Shown here piece by piece: positions 62,404 to 64,000 of a DNA stretch of 64,000 nucleotides (positions are counted from its first letter, which is position 1; each line of letters starts with the position of its first letter). Source of the DNA: Hydrogenobaculum sp. Y04AAS1. Its GTDB lineage: Bacteria > Aquificota > Aquificia > Aquificales > Aquificaceae. Position numbers and translations under genes: made by a program. The stretch is from the NCBI RefSeq assembly GCF_000020785.1, contig NC_011126.1, positions 62,001 to 126,000 of the forward strand, read 5' to 3'. The notes beneath the pieces were generated by a model. The model worked only from the letters and a program-made list of their open reading frames with translations, made no database searches and had not been told where the DNA came from.

Positions 62404-62471
62404 TTTATTTTATCATAACGTATATAAATTTGCTATAATACATATAAAAATAACTTTACGTGGAAGGTGAA

Positions 62472-63518
62472 ATGGAAAATAAAATTGTAAAGTTGTATAG
62501 GTTGATGAGGGCTATAAACCAGGAGATTGTTAGAAGCGTAAATGCTTCAACACCTTACGATGAAGCTTCATTTTTTGAGCATCTTTGCAATATAGTAGTA
62601 GAGCATTTTGTAAAGTTTGCCTTTATAGGTTTTTATATAAAAAGCATAAATAAAATAGTACCGGTTTATTACTCTAAAAAATCAGCCGCTGATAATATAT
62701 ATATAGATTATCTTAAATTTTTGGAAATTTCTCTTGATGAGTCAGATATAAGCTCAAAAGGACCTGCCGCCACATGTTTTAAAACAAATAGCGTTATCAT
62801 AATAGAGGATATAGAAAAAGATCCAAGAATGATACCTTGGAAAGAAGAAGCTTTAAAAAGAGGATTTCGCTCAAGCGCTACTTTGCCTGTAAGAAAAAAC
62901 GGTGATGTCGTAGGTGTGTTTGGGATGTATGCGGACGAGATAGAGTTTTTTCAAGAAGAAGAAAGGAGCTTGTTAGAGGAATTAGCTATTGATATAGAGA
63001 TGACTCTTAACGCTATAAAAACACACTGGCTTTTTCAGGCTGTAGAATCGGGGCTTTCTTCTTATATGGAATTATTTATCATGACAGACAACGACGGTAA
63101 CATATTGTATGTAGGCGATAAAACGTTGAAAGTTTTTGGATACAACAAGGGTGAGCTTTTAGGTAAAAAAGTTGATATTTTATTTAATTATTTATTTAAT
63201 TATAAAGATTTATTAGAGGCTATATCCCAAGCTAAAGAGTATAGTAGTATAGTGCTTTTTAGAACAAAACAAAACAAAAATGTTTATGTAGATCTGGCTG
63301 TTGTACCGATAGCCAACGAGAATTTTATATTTATAGGCAAAGATGTATCAAAAGAGAAGAGCTTAGAAGAGCAAATGCATTTTCTTTTAAATCAAGACCC
63401 TGTTACCGGTTTATTCTCTTACTCATTTTTGATAGCAGAACTTGATATGCATGTAAGAAGAGCATTGGAAACGAGCGAATGGGGGGGGGTGAGCCGTCTG
63501 CCGTGGTTCCCGAGATGA
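62472..63518 (+). CDS. GAF-PAS signalling protein, frame broken before its GGDEF domain
   Basis: The first 348 residues of a signalling protein. A GAF domain (about 10-170: FVKFAFIGFYIK, VIIIEDIEKDPRMIPW, SSATLPVRKNGDVVGVFGMYADE) is followed by a PAS domain (about 190-305: LFIMTDNDGNILYVGDKTLKVFGYNKGELLG) and the first helix of a GGDEF domain (LLNQDPVTGLFSYSFLIAEL). A run of nine G at 63481-63489 then shifts the frame, adding about a dozen unrelated residues before a stop at 63518. The rest of the GGDEF domain continues in another frame. With ten (or seven) G the two halves would join. The ATG at 62472 has a GGAAGGTGAA site; TGCTATAAT lies upstream. Confidence 0.88.
   Translation: MENKIVKLYRLMRAINQEIVRSVNASTPYDEASFFEHLCNIVVEHFVKFAFIGFYIKSINKIVPVYYSKKSAADNIYIDYLKFLEISLDESDISSKGPAATCFKTNSVIIIEDIEKDPRMIPWKEEALKRGFRSSATLPVRKNGDVVGVFGMYADEIEFFQEEERSLLEELAIDIEMTLNAIKTHWLFQAVESGLSSYMELFIMTDNDGNILYVGDKTLKVFGYNKGELLGKKVDILFNYLFNYKDLLEAISQAKEYSSIVLFRTKQNKNVYVDLAVVPIANENFIFIGKDVSKEKSLEEQMHFLLNQDPVTGLFSYSFLIAELDMHVRRALETSEWGGVSRLPWFPR
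63481..63489 (+). repeat. Run of nine G (candidate phase-variation tract)
   Basis: Nine consecutive G in an A+T-rich genome, sitting at the exact junction where the coding frame changes from that starting at 62472 (codon position 0) to that of the GGDEF region. Slippage of one base up or two down restores the frame. No other homopolymer G or C run of this length exists in the window. Confidence 0.9.
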
Positions 63519-64000
63519 ATGCTATAAACACTGGTAAAGCTAATTACAATAGGCTTGGGGCTTTCATACTGGCGGATATCTATAGATTTACTTATATAAA
63601 CGACGTATATGGTTTTGATATAGGCGATGAGCTTTTGAAAGCTGTGGGCAGGAGGCTAAGAGATATATTTAGGCCAACAGATATAATAGGTAGGGTTAGT
63701 TCTGATACGTTCGGTATAATTTTGACAGATTTAAAGGACAAGGAAGATGTAATAATACTTTTGGATAGATTAAGAAAAGCTTTTGAGCAACCTTTCAACA
63801 TAAATGGCAATGTCATAAGTGTAGCTATGCAAATGGGTATAGCTATTTTCCCAGACAATGGAAAGTCTGCCAAAGAGGTGTATAAAAATGCTGACATATC
63901 TTTGGCTAAAGCTAAAAAAAATACAGAGTGGAGTTATGTGTTTTTCAGCGATGATTTAAACTCAAAGGCTTCCCAGTTTTTACTTTACAAAACACATCTT
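63515..64000 (+). CDS. GGDEF-domain continuation (partial, runs off the window)
   Basis: The downstream half of the GAF-PAS-GGDEF protein, open from the G tract to the window end. The diguanylate-cyclase fold is clear: GAFILADIYRFTYINDVYGFDIGDELLKAVGRRL, then RPTDIIGRVSSDTFGIILTD, MQMGIAIFPDNGKSAKEVYKNADISLAKAK. The active-site loop reads SSDTF instead of GGDEF, so the cyclase site is degenerate. The tail (DLNSKASQFLLYKTHL) resembles a linker to an EAL domain, which would lie beyond the window. An ATG at 63515 overlaps the upstream stop (ATGA), so it might be translated separately by re-initiation. Confidence 0.85.
   Translation, partial: MNAINTGKANYNRLGAFILADIYRFTYINDVYGFDIGDELLKAVGRRLRDIFRPTDIIGRVSSDTFGIILTDLKDKEDVIILLDRLRKAFEQPFNINGNVISVAMQMGIAIFPDNGKSAKEVYKNADISLAKAKKNTEWSYVFFSDDLNSKASQFLLYKTHL

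Follow-up and report, generated by a model that had tools for sequence, protein, structure and literature searches.

A nine-G tract at the junction of a split GAF-PAS and GGDEF-EAL gene in Hydrogenobaculum: a possible gene fission, and mononucleotide tracts near c-di-GMP genes of Aquificales

Does a homopolymer tract lying exactly on a frame break switch a gene off, or does it mark the border between two genes that are both in use? The question is posed by a 64,000-nt stretch of Hydrogenobaculum sp. Y04AAS1 (hereafter the window; genome G000, one contig of 1,559,514 bases). Poly-G and poly-C contingency loci are known in Campylobacter, Helicobacter and Neisseria, and long homopolymers are slippery for polymerases. 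A first-pass annotation had proposed that a run of nine G (G9) at the frame change between a GAF-PAS protein and its own GGDEF domain holds a phase-variable cyclic-di-GMP enzyme in the OFF frame. The run was located at 63481-63489 on the plus strand, exactly at the break between the first open reading frame (ORF1), which extends from an ATG at 62472 or a GTG at 62460 to a stop at 63518, and the GGDEF frame (ORF2), open from an ATG at 63479 to beyond the end of the window. The features of the locus are as follows.

62434..62439, plus strand: TATAAT, possible −10 element of the gene, found by eye
62472..63518, plus strand: ORF1, GAF-PAS protein of 348 aa from ATG 62472, with TGA at 63516-63518; GTG 62460 is also a possible start
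62562..62999, plus strand: GAF domain PF13185 (Pfam, residues 31-176)
63075..63350, plus strand: PAS domain PF13426 (Pfam, residues 202-293)
63387..63455, plus strand: LNQDPVTGLFSYSFLIAELDMHV, initial portion of the GGDEF domain, encoded by ORF1, with good conservation across five genomes; segment alpha0, which we take to be the first helix of the domain
63479..64000, plus strand: ORF2 frame, remainder of the GGDEF domain; first ATG at 63479, frame running on to ~64105
63481..63489, plus strand: G9 tract, also G9 in G003
63515..63518, plus strand: ATGA, an ATG of the ORF2 frame over the ORF1 stop TGA; same in G003, GTGA in G001
63545..63922, plus strand: GGDEF domain minus its first part (Pfam, residues 23-148 of L001:2980-3603)
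63698..63712, plus strand: SSDTF in place of GGDEF/GGEEF, also SSDTF in G003
~64083, outside the window (L001 ~3584): 2-nt deletion in the EAL part of G000; frame intact in G003, G001 and G004

The cut falls inside a domain. ORF1 matches GAF_2 (1.3e-14) and PAS_9 (3.9e-10) in Pfam and also encodes the first part of the GGDEF domain (LNQDPVTGLFSYSF...), the remainder being encoded by ORF2. The Pfam GGDEF match of ORF2 (7.7e-30) begins at profile position 29, and that of a naturally fused relative (G004, see below) at position 32. Changing the tract in silico from 6 to 12 G bore out the arithmetic of the first-pass annotation, in which ten or seven G fuse the halves and nine end the protein at 63518. 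With 7 or 10 G the frames are fused, giving a product of 543/544 aa in G000 and 799/800 aa in G003; 8 or 11 G bring a stop directly 3′ of the tract, and with 6, 9 or 12 G the frame terminates at the site corresponding to 63518. In both genomes, having nine G means that the stop codon of ORF1 overlaps the ATG at 63515 (ATGA). The tract thus has the homopolymeric nature of a mononucleotide phase-variable locus and, in silico, its length alters frame and product. No length difference between strains was seen at the site, the only two comparable carriers both having nine.

How unusual is such a run? The whole G000 genome holds two G/C runs of at least eight, the G9 tract and a run of 25 C (C25) at 1226472-1226496. 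A first-order Markov estimate from the composition of the window gives an expectation of ~9 runs of at least eight and ~2 of at least nine. Because ~2 runs of at least nine are expected, the lone G9 of G000 is not surprising and lies within chance. What goes beyond chance is the C25 run in G000, the G9 at the same site in G003 and the recurrence of tracts at c-di-GMP genes.

The locus was compared among five genomes of the genus (G000, G001, G002, G003 and G004), of which G001, G002 and G004 are fragmented assemblies of 70-150 contigs where assembly errors at the junction are possible. G003, a single contig 96% identical over the locus, has exactly nine G and the same split, with an intact ORF2 encoding a 465-aa GGDEF-EAL protein; G9 is its sole G/C run of at least eight. 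A comparison of the tract among Hydrogenobaculum genomes had been suggested in the first-pass annotation, and the presence of the same nine G in a second one-contig genome makes a base-calling or assembly error at the tract unlikely. In G001 (86% identical) the break falls in the same linker and shifts the frame by the same net amount, but there is no G run; the first ORF (343 aa) and the second (430 aa) overlap by GTGA. G004 (77% identical) has a single fused ORF of 774 aa and G002 one of 745 aa, so that the gene is split in three of the five genomes and fused in two. The stop and start codons overlap in all three split genomes (ATGA in G000 and G003, GTGA in G001), within the limit of 10 nt used as a sign of translational coupling. 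Since G001 is split at the same linker without a run, the comparison indicates that the split does not depend on the G run. The split of G001 could also be independent, because its junction sequence differs. The constant length in both carriers and the tractless split of G001 speak against the proposed phase variability of the tract. No copy of the focal site was found in IMG/VR.

What the gene pair might do was assessed from its motifs. The GGDEF signature reads SSDTF in G000 and G003, ASDTF in G001 and G004, and SGDTF in G002; the GGDEF/GGEEF signature of an active diguanylate cyclase is absent from all five. Because the signature is degenerate throughout, cyclase activity is unlikely, judged by the known requirements of these enzymes. 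An EAL domain is recognized by Pfam in G003, G001 and G004, and its frame is broken in G000, where ORF2 ends at 208 aa (~64105) at a stop that follows the 2-nt deletion at the EAL motif. When the fused G004 protein was aligned to MucR (PDB 5m3c; E 2.5e-76), the EAL residues, including the metal-binding motif, aligned and the GGDEF motif did not. Since relatives keep intact EAL motifs while the GGDEF motif has degenerated, the lineage is probably one of sensor phosphodiesterases. Two points of the earlier description have to be amended: its GGDEF motif is a degenerate one, and beyond the window the lineage goes on into EAL. As in MucR-type GGDEF-EAL proteins, the domain order and aligned EAL residues are kept in the fused G004 protein; unlike in MucR, the GGDEF domain is degenerate in Hydrogenobaculum and separated from GAF-PAS in three of five genomes. 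G000 and G003 share an in-frame insertion in the EAL domain (L001 3903-4039 and the matching position of L004) that G001 and G004 lack; the G000 version is the longer one and contains a 41-nt direct repeat (85%).

Selection on the two halves was estimated as dN/dS by the Nei-Gojobori method, with G002 left out of all pairs. The GGDEF part gave 0.015 between G000 and G003 (15 synonymous and 1 nonsynonymous changes in 159 codons) and 0.045 and 0.066 against G001. A long EAL segment of 118 codons, for which G001 was dropped since the segment was not extracted by motif, gave 0.088 between G000 and G003; two short EAL segments of 27 and 24 codons gave 0.56 and 0.31 from only 3 and 7 changes. GAF-PAS gave 0.33 for G000-G003 and 0.11 for G003-G001. 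Changes were then assigned to branches with G001 as outgroup, six unpolarisable differences being excluded. On the G000 branch, GAF-PAS had 7 synonymous and 17 nonsynonymous changes and GGDEF 11 and 0 (Fisher p=1.1e-4); taken together, GGDEF and the three EAL segments had 19 and 4 (p=3.6e-4 against GAF-PAS), and the EAL segments alone 8 and 4, with no clear difference from GAF-PAS (p=0.07). On the G003 branch the halves were alike, with 9 synonymous and 4 nonsynonymous changes in GAF-PAS and 9 and 7 downstream (p=0.70). The nonsynonymous share of GAF-PAS on the G000 branch is also raised in comparison with the G003 branch (p=0.036).

These counts indicate strong purifying selection on the GGDEF portion of ORF2, from which we conclude that the downstream frame is translated and useful. 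In the G000 lineage the upstream half appears to be drifting while the GGDEF half is held, the two evolving on that branch like separate genes. The claim that nine G place the gene in an OFF frame does not sit well with a downstream half constrained in its own frame; the split is probably not a plain OFF switch. The pattern agrees better with two proteins made separately than with a single fused protein that is switched off. Two considerations temper this reading. A phase-variable fused gene that is often ON would likewise keep its downstream half constrained, and GAF-PAS is generally less constrained than GGDEF, which counts against treating the halves as separate genes. The picture is not uniform: three of five genomes are split and GGDEF is constrained, yet the EAL frame of G000 is broken and its GAF-PAS looks relaxed.

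We propose, at a confidence evenly balanced between acceptance and doubt, that the locus results from an old gene fission into two coupled ORFs, whose junction is marked by G9 and could slip into a fused form. The ancestor would be a GAF-PAS-GGDEF-EAL protein, still a single ORF in G004 and G002, which was divided when the linker joining the first part of its degenerate GGDEF domain to the remainder acquired a net offset of −1. This would have left overlapping ORFs in G000, G003 and G001, one for a GAF-PAS protein and one for a (degenerate GGDEF)-EAL protein. ORF2 would probably be translated by re-initiation at ATGA or GTGA, or from its own ATG at 63479; no strong Shine-Dalgarno sequence was seen by eye 5′ of 63515. 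In G000 and G003 a G9 run would have arisen at the junction. A slip to G10 or G7 would join the two halves, in G003 into an intact protein of 800 or 799 aa, and for this reason the tract could toggle between fused and split rather than between ON and OFF. The sign of translational coupling used in the GeneTack survey of conserved frame transitions, which covers seven Aquificae genomes (PMC3711429), is present here, start and stop lying within 10 nt and being conserved. The locus resembles the coupled pairs described there in this stop-start distance, in its conservation among homologues and in the retained downstream frame; it differs in that a sensor-output protein is cut inside its GGDEF domain. 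The main text of that article contains none of the terms GGDEF, diguanylate, EAL domain and Hydrogenobaculum.

The only other long run of G000 likewise breaks a GGDEF gene and, unlike the single G9, is surprising. C25 lies at L038 3473-3497 in a PAS-PAS-GGDEF gene: an ORF of 148 aa (L038 3062-3508) ends just past the tract and is followed by a 617-aa PAS-PAS-GGDEF ORF with a GGEEF motif. In silico, C24 or C27 would fuse the two to 743/744 aa. A paralog at ~183-186 kb lacks a tract at the corresponding place and forms a single frame of 785 aa. For the other four genus genomes we found short flanking matches to the C25 gene and otherwise only distant relatives (best long matches 68-72%).

G/C runs of at least nine were then counted across the family, with c-di-GMP genes located by HMMs built from sequences of this analysis. 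The 64 Aquificaceae genomes contain 32 such runs in 27 genomes, and nine of these are located within a GGDEF or GGDEF-EAL open frame or no more than 58 nt upstream of one: G9 in G000 and G003, C25 in G000, C14 in G059, C9 in G010, C9 in G060, C10 in G061, C10 in G063 and C16 in G014. In 48 further Aquificales genomes there are 17 runs, one of which, in G107, precedes a GGDEF-EAL frame by 41 nt. Significance was judged against an assumed background of 3-5%, estimated from the 10-16 GGDEF matches per genus genome rather than measured across all genomes. With every tract counted, 9/32 gives p=1.9e-5 at 5%; collapsed to loci, 4/27 gives p=0.044 at 5% and 0.008 at 3%; minus the starting G9 tract, 3/26 gives p=0.14 at 5% and 0.042 at 3%. 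Outside the family there is no enrichment (1/17, p=0.58 at 5%). The association between tracts and c-di-GMP genes is numerically suggestive and not proven; the better argument appears to be the repeated occurrence of putative promoter tracts, 7 to 16 nt long, before related genes.

The remaining tracts of at least nine number 39. Eleven are inside an ORF with a Pfam match (the scan covered 30 proteins at 27 loci and left out L123, L137, L138, L174, L176, L179, L180, L181, L186 and L189), four are at the 3′ end of tRNA-Met genes, and the rest lie near contig ends, in ORFs without Pfam match, or between genes. Several contigs end near a tract, and a c-di-GMP gene beyond the end is possible in these cases. 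Tracts also recur in a CO_dh-family gene (two), at the tRNA-Met 3′ ends (four) and in a GHMP-kinase-like gene (two, one by eye), repeats that fit coding or tRNA constraint. Some individual loci may be recorded here. In G002 a G9 (L043 1441-1661) is separated by 155 nt from the 3′ end of an EAL gene and precedes a truncated ORF that looks chemoreceptor-like by eye and has no Pfam match. In the same genome a C8 (sense) lies in an ORF, secretin-like by eye (L041 1455-1508), that has an in-frame stop ~40 nt after the run and continues in the same frame, through mutation or assembly error. In G021 a plus-strand C9 (L139 5800-5808; G9 in sense) marks the overlap of a formyltransferase ORF with a GNAT acetyltransferase ORF; this may be a frame junction in a surface-sugar locus. 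In G050 a plus-strand C11 (L128 3937-3947) lies inside a Wzz-like (polysaccharide chain length) ORF that may be truncated.

The upstream C tracts belong to two groups of GGDEF-EAL genes. The first, of GAF-PAS-GGDEF-EAL type, comprises C14 in G059, C9 in G010, C9 in G060 and C10 in G061, all of genus g7, and C10 in G063 (L132, L133, L134, L135 and L141), the G063 gene being the best match to the g7 group outside that genus (48% identity). The four g7 loci have a GTGTTYA-like box 5′ of the tract (GCGTTCA in L135) and most show, by eye, a CTTG..CAAG inverted repeat 3′ of it. Members of this group without a run are G018 (L151; the tract stretch is missing) and G073. The second group comprises C16 in G014 (L140), C9 in G107 (L178 5510-5538), and C8 in G038 and C7 in G030 (L190, L191). 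The G107 gene is a full-length homolog of that of G014 (43% identity), which belongs to a different family; its homologs in G038 (81%) and G030 (45%) have their tracts almost equally far from the start. On the sense strand of G107, C9 lies within the 17 nt separating TTGATT from TATAAT, which agree with the consensus at 10 of 12 positions; three promoter-like sites were found in this stretch against 1.1 expected. In G038 the corresponding hexamers are, by eye, only 12 nt apart. No run of at least seven was found at second-group genes of G071, G021 (two copies), G067, G069, G070, G039, G000 and G003, nor in the more distant homologs of G044, G012, G009, G007, G042 and G058, nor in the stretches examined from the second G030 copy, G090, G036, G110, G040 and G083, for which the start was not located. 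Homologs in G065, G111, G091 and the second copies in G036 and G090 are outside this tally. Of the homologs examined, a minority have an upstream tract.

Some candidate explanations for these upstream tracts were discarded. That the leader tract hides the Shine-Dalgarno sequence in the four g7 genomes is not borne out by predicted accessibility, which changes by at most 0.04 within two bases of the native length; over the wider range of tract lengths from 5 to 16 C, accessibility predicted at 75 °C drops by up to about half. A general promoter type with C7 or more before TATAAT was also rejected: such sites occur in 10 of 112 genomes, and the reversed control pattern gave 4 matches. Among the 10 genomes, the G107 and G038 sites precede c-di-GMP genes. 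A search of seven promoter-tract loci for known RNA elements returned only three tRNAs above threshold.

Three other explanations of the focal gene have to be set against a stable fission. The leading rival would be slipped-strand phase variation at G9, nine G representing the OFF or split state and ten or seven the fused one, with the locus as one of several c-di-GMP contingency loci of Aquificales. The in silico dependence of the frame on tract length speaks for it, as do the second broken GGDEF gene at C25, the nine of 32 family runs in or within 58 nt upstream of GGDEF(-EAL) frames, the different tract lengths before related genes (14, 9, 9, 10, 10 and 16, 9, 8, 7) and the position of C9 in the G107 spacer between TTGATT and TATAAT. 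We nevertheless regard it as rather unlikely for this gene: both carriers have nine G, G001 is split without a tract, the association is weak once collapsed to loci (4/27, p=0.044 at 5%) and vanishes outside the family (1/17), the two hexamers are, by eye, 12 nt apart in G038, the ortholog of G107, and ten G in G000 still would not restore the EAL domain. The broader claim, of a putative phase-variable c-di-GMP control in Aquificales, receives some support from other loci.

The broken EAL frame is what a decaying gene would show, the frameshifted copy of G000 being on its way to loss and G9 incidental. The second, 2-nt deletion at the EAL motif and the raised nonsynonymous share of GAF-PAS on the G000 branch, also relative to the G003 branch (p=0.036), agree with decay, which we nonetheless consider improbable: ORF2 is intact in G003 and G001, the split is common to three genomes, and relaxation does not extend to both halves, 17 of 24 changes being nonsynonymous in GAF-PAS and 0 of 11 in GGDEF. 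For the GGDEF half, the 11 synonymous changes with no nonsynonymous one lead us to reject a plain pseudogene. Finally, a fixed share of fused protein might be made at the G run itself, either by transcriptional slippage or by programmed −1 frameshifting. A G heptamer stands in the right frame for −1, and the slipperiness of long homopolymers for polymerases would suit slippage during transcription. Against this, no unusual structure was predicted in the 86 nt after the tract (z = +1.08, a value silent on transcriptional slippage), and G001 has no slippery run; the conserved combination of slippery site and structure expected of programmed −1 frameshifting is not seen, the slippery run being confined to two genomes. 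We hold this explanation to be very improbable.

Is any such switch known? Among the titles and abstract openings of open-licence literature we found no report of Aquificales c-di-GMP genes that vary in phase through a homopolymer; the first-pass annotation knew of no homopolymeric G-tract device in this order. The general mechanism of homopolymer contingency loci is covered in the available parts of PMC2831843 and PMC8115180. The former, a homopolymer-tract survey, names Aquificales once in its main text, as a sampled group; the latter, an evolution study of P. aeruginosa, links intergenic homopolymer indels and c-di-GMP as a speculation in the part available; and Aquificales, though not c-di-GMP, are mentioned in the available text of a survey of DNA sequence features (PMC4060949). 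Stochastic switching of c-di-GMP turnover is itself an established idea: pdcB and pdcC of Clostridioides difficile are described, in the available text, as phase-variable c-di-GMP phosphodiesterases that switch by site-specific inversion of upstream DNA and not by a homopolymer (PMC9286219). The loci considered here are like those of Campylobacter, Helicobacter and Neisseria in that G/C mononucleotide runs set the frame or sit in a promoter spacer; they are unlike them in concerning c-di-GMP turnover genes of thermophilic Aquificales, in the equal focal length in two genomes and in being known from sequence alone.

A wider proposal, which we put forward tentatively and would call possible sooner than probable, is that Aquificales repeatedly evolve mononucleotide contingency loci at c-di-GMP genes, in coding linkers (G9, C25) and in promoters or leaders (C7-C16, two families), with hot-spring populations thereby hedging at random between attached and free cells; the focal tract would then toggle between a fused sensor-phosphodiesterase and a split pair. 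Phase variation has mostly been studied in host-associated bacteria. If the proposal is true, a slippage-driven c-di-GMP switch in thermophilic chemolithotrophs would represent host-free bet-hedging of attachment or motility, exerted at the level of a second messenger and not at one surface protein. Should the split be fixed, on the other hand, the locus would present an unusual case: a sensor-output protein stably divided within its GGDEF domain, its output half kept under constraint and its sensor half, in one lineage, drifting.
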